Shown: positions 27,231 through 37,522 of the stretch, in pieces | Layout of the letters: each line of letters opens with the position of its first letter | Position numbering within the stretch: position 1 is the stretch's first letter | From: an uncultured Oscillochloris sp. | GTDB lineage: Bacteria; Chloroflexota; Chloroflexia; Chloroflexales; Chloroflexaceae | NCBI GenBank assembly: GCA_903916565.1 | Contig: CAIWXH010000276.1 | Coordinates: 1 to 39,890 of the forward strand | DNA length: 39,890 nucleotides | Direction: 5' to 3' | Made by a program: the position numbers and the translations under genes | Notes under the pieces: model-generated | Database searches by the model: none | What the model was told of the DNA's origin: nothing | The model's input: the letters and a program-made list of their open reading frames with translations, nothing else

Positions 27231-28838
27231 TCACCGCATCTCGACGCCAAGCAACCCTAGCAGCACCCGGTAGGGGTCCTGATTCTCAGGGTGCCACTCA
27301 AAGCGCGCCCGCTCGAACCACTGCGTCGTGTAGGCATTCCCCTGAATAAACTCCGTCTGCGGCTCGCTGAGCGGCAGCCCGAAGAGGGCAACGCTCTCGC
27401 CGAGACTATAGCCGAACTGCCCGTCAAACTCTAGCCCCTTGCTCCGAAAGTAGCTCAGGAATGGCTCGCACAAACTATGTCCAGTTTCAGCAAAGAAGAG
27501 GCAGCCGCCGACGGCACCGCCCACCTTGCCAAACTGCTGCCAGTCCCGGCCCTGACGGGTCAAGACCTCGGCGCCCAGACGACCCAGCAGCACATCGTAG
27601 GGGCGGCCATTCTCAGGGTGCAGTTCGAGCCGGTTGCGCTCGAACGCTTGCGCCTGATACGACCTGCCTTCGATATTCACCGCCTGCTGTGGGCCGATGG
27701 GGTAGCCAAACACCGGCAGACCGCCGTTCTCGCGCCAGTACGAGAGCAGCCGCCCGCAGACTTGGTAGTTCGTCTCGGGGAAAAATTGGCAATCGCTATC
27801 GTTGATGGGCGGCAACGGCGTGGATGGCACCGTGGGCGGAGTCGTGGGCTGTATCACGGGCACTTGGCCCCCGGCCCTAAAGCTGTCGCTCAGTTCCTTG
27901 GTCAGGCGCAAGTAGAGGTCGCCGTAGCGCTCGCTCGGCTCGATGTGGCTGCCCTCAAAAAACTCGTTGAAGCTAGTCAGCACCACGGCCTGGGCGTTCC
28001 GCTCAATCGCGGTCTGCCAAGTGCCCTGATAGTAGGCTCCGTCCTGGCGGTCGCGGGCGTGGCCGCTGCGGAACTTCAGGTCATCATAGCCCGGCATCAC
28101 CGTCGCGACAAAGGGCCGACTCTGCCCATTGTTCTTGTTATAGGTGGCAAGGCGCTGGGCATAGCTCGCCATCGCCGCGCCCGGTCGGCTCTCCCAAGTA
28201 ATATCGAAGTAGTAGAGCGCGTCAAAGACATCGAGGAAGCTGAAGTTGTCGGTGCCGCCAAACCAGTACTGCTCGCGGTTTGGGTCAGCTTGATTCCGTA
28301 GCGTCTGCCAAGTGCCAAGGTCGCCGAGCGAGGGCGGATAGAACCAGAAGACCACCGGCTTGCCCTGGTAACGCAGATAGTTCGACTGACCGAAGAAGTC
28401 GCTCTTCAGCACATTCAGCGCTCTCGTCAGGCCATCCACACTCTTGAGCGCGCCCCACGCCGACTGGTCGGGGATGATCGCGACCTGGAGGTCGCGCCCG
28501 CCTTCGCGGGCCAGTTCAATCAGGCGGCGGCAGCGCTTGTTGAGGCGATCCTCGTCGGGGCCGTACCACGTGCAGATCAGCGCGTCGATCCCCGCATCAT
28601 CGGCCTGTTGAATGTGTCGGCGCAGAACCGCATCGTCGCCGCCCGTGTAGCGCGGGGACGGCAGATCGCTCATACGGTCGTACGTCCAGTCCGTCGGCTC
28701 CCACCAGGGGTAGTAAAAGGCCATGATGGGCCGGTCTGACACGGCACGGGCGGGCGTGGGGCTGGGCAGACTCGCCAGGGCGACCAGAGCAATGAGCGCG
28801 AGGATCGGCGTGAGCCGGCGCACATGGCGCATTGACAT
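27231..28838 (-). CDS. Secreted GH99-like glycosidase with C-terminal LGFP-like repeats
   Basis: Signal peptide LTPILALIALVALASLPSPTPARA; MAFYYPWWEP, QADDAGIDALICTWYGP, VVLTSFNEFFEGSHIEPSERYGD; repeated GxPVFGYPIGP / FERxRxExHPENxxPYxVLLGxLGxE. Confidence 0.8.
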   Translation of the reverse strand: MSMRHVRRLTPILALIALVALASLPSPTPARAVSDRPIMAFYYPWWEPTDWTYDRMSDLPSPRYTGGDDAVLRRHIQQADDAGIDALICTWYGPDEDRLNKRCRRLIELAREGGRDLQVAIIPDQSAWGALKSVDGLTRALNVLKSDFFGQSNYLRYQGKPVVFWFYPPSLGDLGTWQTLRNQADPNREQYWFGGTDNFSFLDVFDALYYFDITWESRPGAAMASYAQRLATYNKNNGQSRPFVATVMPGYDDLKFRSGHARDRQDGAYYQGTWQTAIERNAQAVVLTSFNEFFEGSHIEPSERYGDLYLRLTKELSDSFRAGGQVPVIQPTTPPTVPSTPLPPINDSDCQFFPETNYQVCGRLLSYWRENGGLPVFGYPIGPQQAVNIEGRSYQAQAFERNRLELHPENGRPYDVLLGRLGAEVLTRQGRDWQQFGKVGGAVGGCLFFAETGHSLCEPFLSYFRSKGLEFDGQFGYSLGESVALFGLPLSEPQTEFIQGNAYTTQWFERARFEWHPENQDPYRVLLGLLGVEMR

Positions 28839-28906
28839 ACGGGATCTCCTTGCATAAGCACGACAATCCCGGCCATTGTACCCGCCGCGCCGAACCATTC
28901 ACATGA

Positions 28907-28941
28907 AAAGACCTGTCAGGTGTCGCACCTGACAGGTCTTT
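28907..28941. terminator. Perfect 16-bp stem hairpin (aaagacctgtcaggtg-tcg-cacctgacaggtcttt)
   Basis: Direct reading. Lies downstream of the gp19-like CDS and upstream of the GH99-like CDS on the minus strand, and ends in a T-run on that strand. Confidence 0.75.
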
Positions 28942-29095: not shown

Positions 29096-29536
29096 CTAGC
29101 TGTAAGATAGCTCGTCGTAGACGATCTCAAACGTCTCGATGTGCAGGCCAGGGCTGGCCCCCACGCCACGCGCACCCTGGTAGAAGCAGGGCCAGCCGCC
29201 ACGAAAGCGGTACGAGGTCCTGATATGGCCCCAATCATCGAGTTCGACGATGGTGCCATCGTGACGCTCGGCGTGGCCCTCGGCGGCGGTGTGCTGCCAG
29301 GCATAGAGGACATCATCGAAGGCGATCCCTTGGGCCAAAACGAGGTGCGACGGCTGCACCTGCTCTGGCTCAGCCACATCGCGCAGATCGACCTCATCGT
29401 CGCTGATGAAGAACTCGATTGGGCGCAGCGCGTGGCCCAGGCCCGCACAATAGCCGAAGGCCGCCCGCGCAACGCCGTCAAGCTCGACCAGATACTTGAA
29501 GCCCTTGTAGTGATTCCCTATCAGTCCCGTAGCCAT
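29096..29536 (-). CDS. T4 gp19-like (contractile tail tube family) protein
   Basis: FKYLVELDGVARAAFGYCAGLGHALRPIEF...HLVLAQGIAFDDVLYAWQHTAAEGHAERHDGTIVELDDWGHIRTSYRFRGGWPCFYQG...GLHIETFEIVYDEL matches the gp19-family residue pattern. Confidence 0.68.
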   Translation of the reverse strand: MATGLIGNHYKGFKYLVELDGVARAAFGYCAGLGHALRPIEFFISDDEVDLRDVAEPEQVQPSHLVLAQGIAFDDVLYAWQHTAAEGHAERHDGTIVELDDWGHIRTSYRFRGGWPCFYQGARGVGASPGLHIETFEIVYDELSYS

Positions 29537-29706
29537 ACGATACCTCCCGCTCATCGGTGAAAGCGCCGCAGCCGCATACAGGGGCAGGCGTCAGTCAATG
29601 TATTAGAGGAATGGTGAGGTGTGTGGATGCAAGTATAACGCCACGACCAGCGTTGCAGAGAAAAGAAAGTTAGCGCCTCGGTTGCGGGCATTTCACCAAC
29701 AAAAGA

Positions 29707-29734
29707 CCCCCGCTCCCTTTCTTGGGAGCGGGGG
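29707..29734 (-). terminator. Terminator hairpin after bchE
   Basis: cccccgctccc-tttctt-gggagcggggg, followed on the minus strand by TCTTTTG. Confidence 0.8.
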
Positions 29735-29760
29735 CCGTCGCTAGGACAGGGCGAGTTGCC

Positions 29761-31425
29761 TTAGCAGCCGATCTGCGTGTTGGTATCGCGGGTTCCGAAC
29801 TCCGCCTCAACCACCGGCTCAAGCGGCAGGTTCAGGCTGTTCTCGGACTGGTGCTTCACCAGCTCGGGGTCGAAGCGGTCGGGGATCGCGCCGCCGAAGG
29901 TGGTATCGGCCACCTGCTCGGGGTGATCCTCCTTCATCCTGGCGATCTGATCGCGGGTGAAGACGCGGCTCTCATCAAAGCCGAGGTCAACCTCCATCTC
30001 CGTCCCATTCATGTGAATGCGCCCGATGTCGTAGAAGCGCTTCTCGAAGGTCGTCTTGGCGAAGGCGCGCAGACAGCCGAGCATATACTTGCGCTTGGCC
30101 TTCTCCTTGATGAAGGGGTACTCAAGGAACGCCTTGCGCGCATAGAAGCGGGCGTAGTTCCGCAGCACGCACTTCAGCACGTCCTCGCGCTCCATCAGGT
30201 CGGGCTTCATAATCGGGGTGACGAAGTTGTACTTCGAGTAGTCGCGCACCTCGACACGGTCGCCCAACTCCTCGAACAACTCGGCGAACGGCCAGGGGGT
30301 GTACATGTTCCAGTTGGCCATGTCCACCTTCCAGTCGAGCGCCAGCCGGTAGGTCTCCTCGATCAGCTCAGGGGTCTCATTCTCCATGCCCATGATGAAC
30401 TGGGCCTCGGCGACCATACCCGCCGCCTGAATGAGCTGGACGGCCTTCTTATTCTGCTCGATGGTCGTCTGCTTGCGGAAGATCTCCAGGTTCATCTGGG
30501 CCGCCGCCTCGGTGCCAAGCGAGATGTGGATCAGGCCCGCCTTGCGCCACAGGGGCAGCAGCGCCTGGTCGCGCATAATGTCGGTCACGCGGGTGTTGAT
30601 GCCCCAGAGGATCGGCAGCTTGCGCCGCGCCAACTCTTCGCAGAGCGCGGTGAACTTCTTGCGATTGAGCGTCGGCTCCTCGTCGGCCAGAATGAAGAAG
30701 CCCACGTTGAAGTCGCGCACCAGCGTCTCGACTTCGTCAACAAACTTGAGCGGGCTGCGTGAGCGATAGCGCCGCCAGAACTTCCACTGCGAGCAGAAGC
30801 GACAGGTGAAGGGGCAGCCACGGGCAAAGTTCGGCACCGCCACGCGCACATTCATCGGCACGTAGATGTACTTATCCCACTCCAGCAGGCTCCAGTCAGG
30901 GGAGAGCGTATCGAGGTCGGCGATTGGCTCGCCCGCGACGGTCGCGATGACCTTCTCGTCCTCGATGTAGGCGATGCCCTTGATGTTGGCGCGGTCTTTC
31001 CGATCCGAGCCAGCCTCAATACTCCTGAGCAGCTCGACAATGATCTCCTCAGCCTCACCACGGACAATGTAGTCAATCCAGGGTGCCTCGCTAAAGACCT
31101 GGGTGTACATGAAGGTGGGGTGGATGCCACCGAGGATCAACTTGGCGTTGGGGCGCTCCTCACGCGCAATGCGGAGGGTCTCCTGGGCCTTGATGATCAT
31201 GGGCGTGATCGCCGTCGCCATAATCACATCGGGCTTGTTGAGCCGAATGATCTGCCGCAACTGATCATCGGGGACATCAAACGTCATCGCGTCAATGAAG
31301 CGCACTTCGTGGAACCCCGCCGCCTTGAGCGCGCCCCCGATATAGGGCACCCAACTCGGCGGCCAATTCCCGGCAATCTCGGCACCACCCGCGTGGTAAT
31401 TCGGCTGGATCATCATGATCCGCAT
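29761..31425 (-). CDS. bchE: Mg-protoporphyrin IX monomethyl ester oxidative (anaerobic) cyclase, B12-binding radical SAM
   Basis: MRIMMIQPNYHAGGAEIAGNWPPSWVPYIGGALKAAGFHEVRFIDAMT (BchE N-terminus); radical SAM CPFTCRFCSQWKFWRRYRSRSP. Start assigned to the MRIMMIQ Met. Confidence 0.92.
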   Translation of the reverse strand: MRIMMIQPNYHAGGAEIAGNWPPSWVPYIGGALKAAGFHEVRFIDAMTFDVPDDQLRQIIRLNKPDVIMATAITPMIIKAQETLRIAREERPNAKLILGGIHPTFMYTQVFSEAPWIDYIVRGEAEEIIVELLRSIEAGSDRKDRANIKGIAYIEDEKVIATVAGEPIADLDTLSPDWSLLEWDKYIYVPMNVRVAVPNFARGCPFTCRFCSQWKFWRRYRSRSPLKFVDEVETLVRDFNVGFFILADEEPTLNRKKFTALCEELARRKLPILWGINTRVTDIMRDQALLPLWRKAGLIHISLGTEAAAQMNLEIFRKQTTIEQNKKAVQLIQAAGMVAEAQFIMGMENETPELIEETYRLALDWKVDMANWNMYTPWPFAELFEELGDRVEVRDYSKYNFVTPIMKPDLMEREDVLKCVLRNYARFYARKAFLEYPFIKEKAKRKYMLGCLRAFAKTTFEKRFYDIGRIHMNGTEMEVDLGFDESRVFTRDQIARMKEDHPEQVADTTFGGAIPDRFDPELVKHQSENSLNLPLEPVVEAEFGTRDTNTQIGC

Positions 31426-31506
31426 AACAGTCTCCCTTGTGGTGTGAAGGGGGCAAACCACGCCCCATGCATCACGACAGACTCTGAACTACAGATTTAT
31501 AAAAAA

Positions 31507-31524
31507 AGGGAGGCGACCCTCCCT
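31507..31524 (-). terminator. Rho-independent terminator after bchJ
   Basis: agggagg-cgac-cctccct, with TTTTTTT following on the minus strand. Confidence 0.8.
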
Positions 31525-31534
31525 GAATAGGCGC

Positions 31535-32140
31535 TTAGCGCACCTCAAAGACACAAGCCTCGGCACCTTGGGCGGTGCAGGCCACCTCGCGCACGACGAG
31601 ACGCCGGTCGATCAGTGGGCGCAGCAGCGCCTGGAAACAGCGCTCGTAGTAGTGGCAGATGGGCGCATCGGCGACGATGCCGCGACTCTCGGGCGAGTCG
31701 GCCAAGCTCAGAACGGCCCCTTTGGCATCAACCGTGTAGCTGAAGCGGCCCGTGCCGGCGAAGGTCCAGGCGTGACCAGAGATCGCCTTGAGCAGCAGGC
31801 TGAGGCCGAGACGACGTGGCAGGCGGGGGAGAACGAGGTGGGCGGGGGCGGGGATGCGGTTCGCCAGAAGATAGTCGGCGGTACGTTCGCCCGCACGGGC
31901 CAGGATGCGACCAGCGGCTTCAACGCCCATATCGGCGCGGATGGCCCCGATCAGGCTAATGAACGCGAGCTCATCAATCATCGTCGTCGGTAGCTGGTCG
32001 GCGAAGTCGCCCTGCCCAATCCGACGCAGGAAGTTCTGCGTCTCTTTGTAGCCGCGCTCCTCCTCAAGGGCACCGACGGTCTGAATGATGGAGTTCGGGC
32101 CGATGCGCGCCGCGCCCACAGCAGGGTGCGTCGCGTGCAT
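31535..32140 (-). CDS. bchJ: BchJ-like V4R-domain protein (bacteriochlorophyll biosynthesis)
   Basis: RIGPNSIIQTVGALEEERG..., IPAPAHLVLPRLPRRLGLSLLLKAISGHAWTFAGTGRFSY, and V4R-like C-terminus PICHYYERCFQALLRPLID...EVACTAQGAEACVFEV. Upstream AAAGGAG. Confidence 0.85.
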   Translation of the reverse strand: MHATHPAVGAARIGPNSIIQTVGALEEERGYKETQNFLRRIGQGDFADQLPTTMIDELAFISLIGAIRADMGVEAAGRILARAGERTADYLLANRIPAPAHLVLPRLPRRLGLSLLLKAISGHAWTFAGTGRFSYTVDAKGAVLSLADSPESRGIVADAPICHYYERCFQALLRPLIDRRLVVREVACTAQGAEACVFEVR

Positions 32141-32285
32141 AGGGAGCTCCTTTCTCGGGAGTACAAGAATTGACATTTTATACAGACGTAGGTACACGCA
32201 GTCTACCACGGCACTACGTTGCTAGAGGTGGCGATCAGTCAACAGAGAGTGAGGTTTTCTTCCCAGAGGACCATCAGCGCCGGTG

Positions 32286-32303
32286 CTACCATTGCAGTGG
32301 TAG
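32286..32303. promoter_or_regulatory. Operator-like palindrome CTACCATTGCAGTGGTAG upstream of hoxE
   Basis: 18-bp palindrome with one mismatched pair, in the divergent bchJ-hoxE spacer. Confidence 0.5.
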
Positions 32304-32306
32304 TAT

Positions 32307-32318
32307 TGCGTCAACGCA
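32307..32318. promoter_or_regulatory. Inverted repeat TGCGT-CA-ACGCA upstream of hoxE
   Basis: Perfect 5-bp arms with a 2-nt spacer, 3 bp after the previous palindrome. Confidence 0.4.
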
Positions 32319-32337
32319 GCCGAAATAGGACAGCCTT

Positions 32338-32841
32338 ATGTCCACTCCTCACACACAGATCGAACGAACAACGCACGTCGGTGACAACCGCCTCAAAATC
32401 CTTGAGGCGATGATGAAGCGGCACCAATACCGCGCCGACGCCCTGATCGAGGTTCTCCACAAAGGCCAGGAACTGTACGGTCATCTGTCACCAAGCCTGC
32501 TCACGCTGATCGCCCATAGCCTGCACCTGCCGCCAAGTCGCGTCTACGGTGTCGCTACATTCTACCATTTCTTCTCGCTGGCGCCGCAGGGCGAACACAC
32601 CTGTACGGTCTGTCTCGGCACCGCTTGTTATGTCAAGGGTGCCGCGACGATTTTGGCTGCCCTTGAACGTGAGACAGGGCTACGCGCGGGCACCACCAGC
32701 CCTAATGGTCGCCTCTCGCTGCTGACTACCCGCTGTCTGGGTGCCTGCGGCATCGCCCCCGCCGTGGTGATCGACGGCACCGTTATGGGTCACGCCGACG
32801 ACGACGGGCCGCGTACCAAGCTGCACGAGTTGCTCGATTAG
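32338..32841 (+). CDS. hoxE: Bidirectional [NiFe]-hydrogenase diaphorase subunit HoxE (NuoE-like)
   Basis: GVATFYHFFSLAPQGEHTCTVCLGTACYVKGA...LLTTRCLGACGIAPAVVIDG: 2Fe-2S thioredoxin-like ferredoxin, first of hoxEFUYH. Confidence 0.93.
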   Translation: MSTPHTQIERTTHVGDNRLKILEAMMKRHQYRADALIEVLHKGQELYGHLSPSLLTLIAHSLHLPPSRVYGVATFYHFFSLAPQGEHTCTVCLGTACYVKGAATILAALERETGLRAGTTSPNGRLSLLTTRCLGACGIAPAVVIDGTVMGHADDDGPRTKLHELLD

Positions 32842-32918
32842 ACAAGGTTCGCAGATGCGTTCCAGTTTCGGCACTGCGCTCGGCTGAAACCTGAAACCTG
32901 AAACCTGAAACCTTGTCC
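32840..32918 (+). repeat. TIR element copy D (79 bp, internal deletion) at the hoxE/hoxF junction
   Basis: agacaaggttcgcagatgcgttccagtttcggc...ctgaaaccttgtcc. Begins inside the hoxE TAG stop codon. Confidence 0.9.
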
Positions 32919-32937
32919 TTAGCATAAAGACGCCATT

Positions 32938-34566
32938 ATGGATCTCACCGAACTTCACGGGATCGCCGAGCGCGAGCGCGCCCGCCGCAAGGCAATTCGT
33001 ATTCACTGCTGCACTTCCTTGGGCTGCCATGCCTCGGGTGCGCTTGAACTCCAACGCCGCCTTGAGGCGGCGGTCGAGGCTGCTGGACGGGCCGACACGG
33101 TTGAGGTGGTCGGAGTCGGCTGTATCGGCTTCTGCGGCCACGGCCCGCTGGTCAGCGTCGAGCCAAGTGGCCTGCTCTTTGAGCGGGTGACGCCCGAGCA
33201 GGCTCCCGACATCGTCGCCGCCCTTGACGGCGGGCCGTGCGCGGCCCAGCGCGGCGACCCCAATCACCCGTTCTTCAGTCGCCAACTGCTGGTGGTGCGG
33301 CGCAACGGCGGGCGCATTGACCCCGAGCGCATTGAGGAGTACATCGCCGCCGGGGGCTACCAGGCGCTCTACGATGTGCTGCACGACCAAAGCCCCGCCG
33401 AGGTGATTGACGCCATTACGCGCAGCGGGCTGCGCGGGCGCGGCGGTGCCGGGTATCCCACCGGGCTCAAATGGGCGACGGTCGCCAAGAGTAAAGGTGC
33501 CCCGCAAGGTGCCCCGCGCAAGTTTGTGGTCTGCAATGGCGACGAGGGCGACCCCGGCGCGTTTATGGACCGCAGCATTCTGGAGAGCGACCCGCATCTG
33601 GTGCTTGAGGGCATGAGCATCGCGGCCTACGCCGTGGGCGCCGACCAGGGCTTTCTCTACGTGCGCGGCGAGTATCCCCTGGCGATCCAACGGCTCAGTA
33701 AGGCGATCACGCAGGCGCGCAAGCACGGCCTGCTCGGCAGCCAGATCTTCGACACCGCCTTCGACTTCAAGGTCGAGATTCGCGTCGGCGCGGGGGCGTT
33801 CGTCTGTGGCGAAGAGACGGCGCTGATTGCCAGCATCGAGGGACGCCGGGGCCAACCGCGCCCGCGCCCGCCCTATCCCGCCGAACGCGGCCTCTGGGGC
33901 TGCCCGACGCTGATCAACAATGTCGAGACTTTTGCCAACATTGCGCCGATTATCAGCCGGGGCGCTGACTGGTACGCGGGCATCGGCACCGCCAAAAGCC
34001 GGGGCACCAAGGTCTTTGCCCTCGCCGGGAAGATCCGCAACACGGGCCTGATCGAGGTGCCGATGGGCATCACGCTGCGCGAAATCGTGGAGGAGTTGGG
34101 CGGCGGCACCGCCGACGGCAGCCCGGTGAAGGCCGTCCAGACCGGCGGCCCGTCGGGCGGTTGCATCCCGGCCAGCCTGTTCGACACGCCCGTGGACTAC
34201 GAGTCGCTGGCGGCGGTCGGCTCAATCATGGGTTCCGGCGGCATGGTCGTGATGGACGACGCCACCAGCATGGTTGAGATTGCCCGCTTTTACATGGAAT
34301 TTTGCATGGACGAGTCGTGCGGCAAGTGTGTGCCCTGCCGCGTCGGCACCGTCCAGATGCACCACCTGCTCGACCGCATCTGCAATGGTGAGGCTACGCC
34401 CGCCGAAATTGTCCAGCTCGAAGAGCTTTGTCAGTTGGTGCGCGAGACGAGCCTCTGCGGCCTTGGTCAGTCGGCGCCCAACCCGGTACTCAGCACCCTG
34501 CGCTACTTCCGTGACGAGTACGAGGAGCGCTTGCGCCACGAAGCTCTGGCAGAGGAGGCACCCTAA
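32938..34566 (+). CDS. hoxF: Bidirectional hydrogenase diaphorase subunit HoxF (NuoF-like)
   Basis: N-terminal [13 protein letters not shown]...[56 protein letters not shown]. Confidence 0.96.
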
Positions 34567-35274
34567 ATGTCAGCCAAAACTCTGACCATTGACGGCCAGA
34601 TGGTGAGCGCCGGAGCCGACGAGAGCATCCTTCAGGCGGCCCGCGAGGCGGGCATCCGCATCCCGACGCTCTGCCACCTCGACGGCCTTTCAGAGATGGG
34701 CGCCTGTCGCCTCTGTTTGGTTGAAGTCGTCGGAACGAGCAAATTGCAGCCCGCCTGTCACACCAGCGTGGCTGAAGGGATGGAGGTACGCACCGACACC
34801 GAGCGCCTGCGCGCCCATCGGCGGGCGATTGTCGAGCTGATCTTCGCCGAGCGCAACCACGTCTGTGCGGTGTGCGTCGCCTCGGGCCACTGTGAACTCC
34901 AGAACCTTGCGGCAGCCGTGGGCATGACCCACGTGCGCTACGAGTATTTGGCCCCAAGCTGCGCGGTGGACATCAGCCACGCACGCTTCGGCATTGACCA
35001 CAACCGCTGTGTGCTTTGCACGCGCTGTGTGCGCGCCTGCGACGAAGTTGAGGGCGTCCACACCTGGGATATCGCCGGACGCGGCACCGAGTCACGCCTC
35101 ATCACCGATCTCCATGTGCCCTGGGGCGAGGCGGCGAGCTGCACCTCATGTGGCAAGTGCCTGCTGGCCTGCCCAACTGGGGCGATCTTCCACCGTGGCA
35201 GCACCGTGGCCGAGCTTGAGCATGAACCGACGCGCATCGCCGCGATTGTCGCGGCGCGGAGTGAGCGCTGGTGA
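34567..35274 (+). CDS. hoxU: Bidirectional hydrogenase subunit HoxU (NuoG-like ferredoxin)
   Basis: MGACRLCLVEV, CAVCVASGHCELQ, CVLCTRCVRAC, CTSCGKCLLACPTGAIF. Start abuts the hoxF stop. Confidence 0.95.
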   Translation: MSAKTLTIDGQMVSAGADESILQAAREAGIRIPTLCHLDGLSEMGACRLCLVEVVGTSKLQPACHTSVAEGMEVRTDTERLRAHRRAIVELIFAERNHVCAVCVASGHCELQNLAAAVGMTHVRYEYLAPSCAVDISHARFGIDHNRCVLCTRCVRACDEVEGVHTWDIAGRGTESRLITDLHVPWGEAASCTSCGKCLLACPTGAIFHRGSTVAELEHEPTRIAAIVAARSERW

Positions 35275-35302
35275 TAGGACTAACCGCTTACGGTGCCGGG
35301 GC

Positions 35303-35380
35303 GATCTCGCGCCAAGCCGGACAGATCTCGCGCCAAGCCGCAAAGCCGCAAAGCCGGGAAGATCTCGCGCAAAGCCGCAC
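35303..35380. repeat. Microrepeat array (gatctcgcgccaagccg x3 with caaagccg units)
   Basis: gatctcgcgc(c/a)aagccg at 35303, 35324 and 35361, with caaagccgcaaagccg between. Confidence 0.88.
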
Positions 35381-35382
35381 AG

Positions 35383-35433
35383 GCGCTCAGACTAAAACCT
35401 GAAACCCGGCACCTGACACCTGAACCCTTGTCT
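35383..35433 (+). repeat. TIR element copy E (3' half only) at the hoxU/hoxY junction
   Basis: gcgctcagactaaaacctgaaacccggcacctgacacctgaacccttgtct aligns to the 3' half of copies B (reverse complement) and F. Confidence 0.82.
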
Positions 35434-35445
35434 AAGGACTCTTGT

Positions 35446-35982
35446 ATGGCTGACAAACTACGTCTGGCAACCGTGTGGCTCGGGGGCTGCTCGGGCTGCC
35501 ATATGTCGCTGCTCGATATGGACGAGTGGCTGATTGACCTCGCCGCCGTCGCTGATCTGGTTTACAGTCCCATCGCCGACCACAAACACTACCCGAAAAA
35601 CGTAGACCTTGTCCTGGTTGAAGGGGCCGTGGCGACCAATGAGCATCTGGAGTTGGCCCGCAAAGTGCGCCAGCGTAGCCGCCTGGTGGTGGCGCTGGGC
35701 GACTGCGCCGTGACCGGCAATGTGACCGCGATGCGTAATCCCCTGGGAGCGGCGGCCACGGTGCTTCAGCAGGTCTATATCACCCACGGCGACCCACGGG
35801 GCGTACTGCCCGACGACCCCGACATCGTGCCGCGCCTGCTCGACACGGTGGTGCCCCTGCACGCCACGATCACGGTGGATCTGTTTCTGCCGGGCTGCCC
35901 GCCCTCGGCCCCCGCCATTCGCGCCCTGATCGAAGCCCTGCTCAAGGGCGAAACGCCGCCGGCGGCAAGCCGCTTTGGATAA
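35446..35982 (+). CDS. hoxY: [NiFe]-hydrogenase small subunit HoxY
   Basis: [54 protein letters not shown] aagga. Confidence 0.95.
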
Positions 35983-36078
35983 AGATGAGGTTCGCAGATG
36001 CTTTCTAGTTTTGGCACACGCATAGTTTTCTGATGCGCTCGGCCTGAAACCTGAAACCCGGCACCTGAAACCTTGTCA
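35983..36078 (+). repeat. 96-bp TIR element, copy F, at the hoxY/hoxH junction
   Basis: agatgaggttcgcagatgc...cctgaaacccggcacctgaaaccttgtca. Starts on the base after the hoxY TAA. Confidence 0.92.
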
Positions 36079-36091
36079 AAGAGAGCTACTT

Positions 36092-37522
36092 ATGGCCCAG
36101 ACAATTGTGATTGACCCCGTGACCCGCATCGAGGGGCACGCCAAAATCAGCATCTATCTCGACGATGCGGGCGCGGTGCGGGACGCCCATTTTCACGTTA
36201 CCGAATTTCGCGGCTTCGAGCGCTTCTGCCTGGGGCGACCCTTTTGGGAGATGCCGGCCATCACGGCGCGCATCTGCGGAATCTGCCCCGTGAGCCACAT
36301 CCTGGCCTCGGCGAAGGCGGGCGATGGTATTCTGGCCGTGGCGATTCCGCCCGGCGCCGAGCAGTTGCGCCGCCTGATGAACCTGGCCCAAATCGTCCAA
36401 TCGCACGCCCTGAGCTTCTTCCACCTGAGCGGGCCGGATCTCTTTCTGGGCTTCGAGAGCGACCCGGCCAAGCGCAACATCTTTGGGCTGGTGGCCGCCG
36501 ATCCCGCCTTCGCCCGTGGCGGCATCAGGCTGCGCCAGTTCGGCCAGTCAATCATCGAGGCGCTGGGCGGGCGGAAGATCCACCCGGCCTGGGCTGTGCC
36601 GGGCGGCGTGCGCTCGGGCCTCACCGCCGAGGCGCGGGCCGTGATTGCCGCTGGGCTGCCCGAGGCGATCCAGGTCGCCGAGGGTGCGCTCAACCGCTTC
36701 AAGGGGCTGCTGGCACGCTGCGAGGAGGAGATCGCCACTTACGGGCAGTTCCCCAGCCTCTTCCTGGGCCTGGTCGGCGAAGATGGCACCTGGGAGCATC
36801 ACGGCGGTCGCCTGCGCGTGATGGACGCGCAGGGCAACATCTTGGCCGATCACATCGCTGCCGAACACTACGACGAGCTGATCGGCGAGGCGGGCGAGCC
36901 GTGGAGCTATCTGAAATTCCCGTATTACCGGCCCCAGGGCTACCCCGAGGGCATTTACCGCGTTGGGCCACTGGCCCGGCTAAACATCTGCCGCAGCGTC
37001 GGCACGCCCGTGGCTGACGCCGAGTTGGTCGAGATGCGCCAGCGGGCGGGCGGCGGGCCAATCAGCGCCAGCTTCTTTTATCACTACGCCCGCTTGGTGG
37101 AAATCGTGGCCGCGCTTGAGCGTATCGGTATGCTGATCGCCGACCCTGAGGTTGGCACCGGCCCGCTGCGGGCGAATGCCGGGGTCAATCGGCGCGAGGC
37201 GGTCGGCGTCAGCGAGGCGCCGCGTGGCACGCTCTTCCATCACTACAAGGTGGACGAGGACGGCTTAATCACTTATGTCAATCTGATTATCGCCACAGGG
37301 CAAAACAATCTGGCGATGAACCGCACCGTCGCCCAGATTGCCCGGCGCTATCTGCGCGGCGACCGCCTCGACGAAGGGCTGCTCAACCGAGTCGAGGCAG
37401 GCATTCGGGCGTATGACCCCTGCCTAAGTTGCTCGACGCACTTGGCGGGCCAGCCCACGGTTGAACTGGCCTTGATTGGGCCTGACGGGACTGTGATCGA
37501 CCAGATTGGCCCCGACCTCTGA
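36092..37522 (+). CDS. hoxH: [NiFe]-hydrogenase large subunit HoxH
   Basis: [70 protein letters not shown] (Ni-ligand motifs and a C-terminal extension after the conserved His). Confidence 0.97.

Follow-up and report, generated by a model that had tools for sequence, protein, structure and literature searches.

We found that a gene for a 146-aa protein of the T4 gp19 tail-tube family in an uncultured Oscillochloris sp. belongs to a single clade of phototrophic Chloroflexaceae, in which it has been inherited vertically, in synteny with bchE and hydrogenase genes, and under purifying selection. It persists where no contractile apparatus was found, and its product has diverged in the loop responsible for ring stacking in related tubes. 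The orphan gene is neither a decaying remnant nor, within the window genome, a part supplied in trans; in our judgment it probably encodes a domesticated tube protein of an extracellular contractile injection system (eCIS). The window, that is, the whole stretch of DNA analyzed (39,890 nucleotides), is one whole contig, and its relevant features are listed in Table 1.

Table 1. Features in and around the orphan tube gene (window coordinates)
Feature	Position	Strand	Basis
Stand-alone gp19/eCIS-tube-fold protein gene, 146 aa	29096..29536	−	PF06841 match, predicted tube-type fold, 14-member orthologous clade
Shine-Dalgarno site GGGAGG of the tube gene	29543..29548	−	G-A-rich site upstream of the start, conserved in orthologues
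Putative −10 box TATACT within the GTTATACT block	29632..29637	−	Aligned upstream regions of G000–G002 and G013–G015
Intrinsic terminator just 3' of bchE, between bchE and the tube gene	29705..29736	−	13-bp stem, T tail
Perfect palindrome with 16-bp arms (AAAGACCTGTCAGGTG), 3' of the tube gene, likely terminator	28907..28941	−	−27.1 kcal/mol, z = −7.25
bchE, conserved neighbor	29761..31461	−	TIGR02026, 820 bits (cut-off 481); adjoins the tube gene in 11 genomes
bchJ (V4R protein), conserved neighbor	31535..32209	−	TIGR02019, 206.9 bits (cut-off 74.3)
HoxEFUYH-type NiFe hydrogenase genes, conserved neighbors	32338..37522	+	Gene order kept in relatives; large subunit is a NiFe hydrogenase

Results

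The gp19-like tube protein named in the initial annotation was borne out: Pfam family PF06841 (Phage_T4_gp19) matched residues 12–143, nearly the full length, at 45.4 bits (E = 8.9e-12; curated cut-off 28.2 bits). This was the sole Pfam match at E ≤ 1, and the Hcp family profile in Pfam gave none. The protein scored below the curated cut-off of TIGR02241 (phage tail region/eCIS tube; 34.8 against 62.4 bits), a model for which three canonical tubes of relatives reached 104–140 bits, and far below that of NF053770 (NCBIfam CIS5 inner tube adaptor; 39.9 against 260 bits); a search of PHROGs returned no match. Against the PDB, the single sequence matched eCIS tubes weakly (E = 6e-4), and the orthologue profile gave E = 3e-9 for 9r9h and 7e-9 for AlgoCIS. 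The fold had been set beforehand as the refuting test, and AlphaFold2 predicted a tube-type β-barrel (pLDDT 76.6, pTM 0.70; a monomer model from a shallow alignment, as for the other models here). Foldseek placed the AlgoCIS tube 7adz_1a first (E = 1.1e-5), and the top ranks were taken by AlgoCIS, PVC, Anabaena CIS, AFP, and Hcp structures (TM about 0.5). As modeled, the protein has the tail-tube β-barrel of a contractile-system inner tube.

Conservation in relatives, a check proposed with the initial annotation, proved extensive. A profile search recovered 14 orthologues from five genera of phototrophic Chloroflexaceae (210–237 bits, against at most 109 bits for canonical tubes), sharing 38–77% identity with the window protein. 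In 400 members of the phylum sampled outside the family, no orthologue was found (E ≤ 1e-25); a scan across species with this one protein as query, which reaches close relatives only, returned the same genus only. The orthologues were monophyletic in the tube tree (support 100/100), with the canonical tube on contig C724 of genome G001 (L047:730-1167) as nearest relative (90/88). Pairwise dN/dS values of 0.05–0.25 indicate that the orphan tube genes are under purifying selection. In the HoxH tree, the sampled carriers fell on one side of a branch (support 73/62; 76% of bootstrap trees), within a group supported at 98/97 whose sole non-carrier was G016; gain of the gene after the split from G016, or its loss in that sister genome, are both possible. 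Viral contigs yielded only distant matches, up to 34% identity. We rejected a phage or plasmid origin of the clade, as phages gave no match and plasmid matches were only 23–37% identical, the two best being eCIS tubes of the ordinary kind, with genes for sheath and gp25 next to them.

The reported lack of a sheath gene beside the tube gene held beyond the window. The orphan was the only PF06841 gene in a search of the whole window genome, a draft of 850 contigs (97% complete, 4.4% contamination), in which neither sheath (PF04984) nor gp25 (PF04965) was found. Because the window genome is a draft, G027 matters as a second case: it is 99% complete in about 90 contigs, carries an orthologue, and gave no sheath, gp25, or other tube. 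Tube-type matches occurred in 33 of 82 genomes of the order, and only the window genome and G027 had them without a sheath. Encoding together with sheath and baseplate, as for a working inner tube, was not observed for the orphan: whereas 51 of 55 canonical tube matches shared a contig with a sheath gene, none of the 14 orthologues did, on contigs of up to 164 kb. A PF04984 match was present somewhere in the genome of 12 of the 14 carriers, and each contractile locus sampled there had its own tube, of several unrelated types placed at several separate points in the tree; therefore, no single system has the orphan as its dedicated partner. As a separate observation, G001 (7% contamination) contained six sheath matches, on contigs C540, C724, C1604, C831, C1588, and C710, which suggests that the bin is mixed or that its genome encodes several contractile systems.

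These distributions bear on whether the orphan acts in trans as a tube variant, adaptor, or regulator of distant contractile systems, being a recent left-over in the window genome and G027. With sheath matches in most carriers, contractile use there is conceivable; in addition, the tube-like fold is retained, and eCIS tubes do have specialized adaptor paralogues, although the CIS5 model scored the orphan far below its cut-off. Nevertheless, the carriers hold several unrelated contractile loci, of which the sampled ones bring their own tubes, whereas the orphan forms one vertically inherited clade that never shares a contig with a sheath gene. Pairs that include the window genome or G027 were also as constrained (dN/dS) as other pairs. 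We thus regard a role in trans as unlikely. The narrower suggestion in the initial annotation, a component of a distantly encoded machine, is contradicted in the window genome and G027, and elsewhere the sampled loci have their own tubes; the orphan as the missing tube of a distant eCIS was rejected on these grounds.

The neighbors first proposed from the window, bchE and a GH99-like gene, were confirmed (GH99-type domain, 63 bits, cut-off 33). We take the hydrogenase genes to be hox genes. The order orphan–bchE–bchJ was kept in 11 genomes of three genera (g1, g4, and g11), with the hydrogenase next wherever the contig reached. In G031 (L038, L132; estimated 100% complete, with reaction-centre genes), the orphan directly adjoined the hydrogenase genes, the bchE–bchJ block was absent between them, and a BchE search of the genome gave no match. 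In G039 and G040, bchE–bchJ–hox was intact and the orphan lay elsewhere. With 11 genomes and G031 linked and these two unlinked, linkage to bchE and the hydrogenase is ancestral and not obligatory. Among the bchE loci examined, bchE–bchJ adjoined the hydrogenase cluster (window 29761-37522) only in the carrier clade; other Chloroflexaceae had bchE and the hydrogenase apart.

A role in this locus, such as that of a sensor ring or assembly scaffold in anaerobic bacteriochlorophyll synthesis or for the hydrogenase, would accord with the three-genus synteny, with the attachment to hox alone in G031, and with the restriction of bchE–hox linkage to the carrier clade. However, the orphan has left an intact locus in G039 and G040, stays in G031 without BchE, and is missing from phototrophs outside the clade that have both bchE and hox, and a terminator separates it from bchE. 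We consider such a dedicated role improbable and rejected a strict functional tie to bchE, which is broken in G031, G039, and G040; the gene may still have some functional link to the hydrogenase or to the synthesis of bacteriochlorophyll.

Two further features of these loci were recorded. In the product of the GH99-type gene (window 27231-28898), a repeated module lies C-terminal to the GH99-type domain, and parts of this module match a stretch next to the G031 orthologue (L038:8512-9009). Beside the G039 orthologue, L036:3211-3911 is tandem-repeat-like, with PPPEGCFAGAMPP-type frames repeated on the opposite strand, and is probably an intergenic repeat array.

Local signals in the DNA point to the tube gene as an expressed, perhaps regulated, separate unit. 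An alternative upstream ATG at 29554 would lengthen the protein by 6 aa, but the start at 29536 is preferred because the Shine-Dalgarno site, 7–12 bases before its ATG, and the orthologues support it. The upstream block was common to two genera (g1 and g4), and its TATACT box, which a simple sigma-70 scan did not report, may belong to the promoter of the tube gene. Hairpins comparable to the bchE terminator occurred in several relatives, not in all. The palindrome 3' of the tube gene, a single copy in the window lying between that gene and the GH99-type gene, is likely the terminator of the tube gene, with a short T tail. In genus g11, the last ~75 bases upstream of the orthologue were nearly invariant (L040:8502-8590, L043, L044, L045, and L046), and a predicted hairpin, CCTCCTC-N6-GAGGAGG, covered the Shine-Dalgarno site in 5/5 genomes with slight covariation support; translational control by this leader is possible. 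Rfam gave no match in the window or in five relatives' loci; of the five g11 leader loci, the search covered L040 and L046, neither of which matched.

The initial annotation had also offered a remnant, and decay after loss of a phage tail or eCIS would explain a solitary gene in a genome with no apparatus found. It is highly improbable, and we rejected it, given 14 intact orthologues across five genera, the low dN/dS values, and the conserved leader and Shine-Dalgarno site. Mesophilic Chloroflexales form sheets of filaments spaced 18 nm apart, of unknown make-up, beside gas vesicles (PMC7332563); the carriers appear to overlap with the mesophilic, gas-vesicle-bearing genera, and such sheets have been seen in 'Ca. 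Viridilinea', but GvpA was not found in carriers G023, G025, and G031 and is present in many non-carriers, a mismatch on which we rejected the gas-vesicle link and which leaves a part in the vesicle or filament-sheet apparatus with very little probability.

The third proposal, a repurposed tube-forming protein, fared differently in its two halves: repurposing is the best supported of the three readings, and tube formation is doubtful because the ring-stacking loop of related tubes has diverged. In T4 gp19 and pyocin tubes, a loop of 25–28 residues forms a hairpin under the neighboring subunit and contacts the next disk (PMC6088184), and mutants of the Hcp1 loop were prevented from stacking (PMC4650826). 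In the orphans, the loop between the second and third main strands is similar in length to the canonical one and changed in sequence. A basic [KR]-x-P-G (K-x-P-G) motif marks this loop in 25 of the 27 canonical tubes of these bacteria; at the corresponding position none of the 14 orphans has K or R, and acidic or small residues precede the proline. Two other signatures separate the groups, [GS][DP]D[EA][IV] (14/14 orphans versus 0/27 canonical tubes) and H[DN]G (14/14 versus 1/27). With the orphan and a canonical control folded from the same 21 sequences, AlphaFold2 left the orphan loop unstructured (pLDDT about 42) and made a β-hairpin in the control (about 70). Low confidence of this kind can reflect poor evidence rather than lost structure, and even in functional tubes the stacking loop varies and can be flexible (PMC6088184). 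The changed loop suggests, without proving, a loss of tube stacking in the orphan clade.

Discussion

We favor domestication of an eCIS tube protein. An inner-tube gene would have been captured once, in the ancestor of the phototrophic Chloroflexaceae clade, and then domesticated, and a promoter of its own probably drives its transcription. Its product would fold as a tube β-barrel and probably form small cytoplasmic rings, hexameric as in Hcp, that may no longer stack into a long tube; each could act as a binding or scaffold ring for a putative client. Ring formation without stacking is perhaps correct, at somewhat less than an even chance.

Encapsulins are well known as domesticated phage capsid proteins. 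More tentatively, the orphan might be their tail-tube counterpart, a stand-alone cytoplasmic ring or short-tube scaffold, possibly for anaerobic bacteriochlorophyll or hydrogen metabolism; we hold this specific form to be rather unlikely. Our searches of the open-licence literature turned up no report of a clade of contractile-tail tube proteins that are solitary and vertically inherited. If expressed and ring-forming, the orphan would offer a clear example of a tube subunit that has parted from injection, would reveal which elements of the fold stacking requires, and would point to an unassigned structure in little-studied green filamentous phototrophs.

Relation to known tube proteins

The closest known systems are the inner tubes of eCIS and phage-tail-like particles (AlgoCIS, 7adz; Anabaena CIS All3324, 7b5h; PVC; AFP; TIGR02241), to which the orphan is homologous over its whole length and with which it shares the predicted β-barrel fold. 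Unlike them, it has no sheath, baseplate, or paralogous tube adjoining, its stacking loop and K-x-P-G motif are changed, and it scores below the TIGR02241 cut-off. Even the C724 tube of G001, the nearest to the orphan clade, differs in sharing its contig with a sheath gene and another tube and in keeping RKLPG. Hcp, the type VI secretion tube, has the same fold class and forms rings on its own, independently of the other machine components (PMC6088184). Its similarity to the orphan is structural only: the Hcp family was not matched in Pfam, and no type VI genes were seen beside the orphan. Encapsulins offer a parallel in that a structural protein of phage type was domesticated and is encoded on its own; their fold is unrelated to that of the orphan, and the likeness is one of analogy only.
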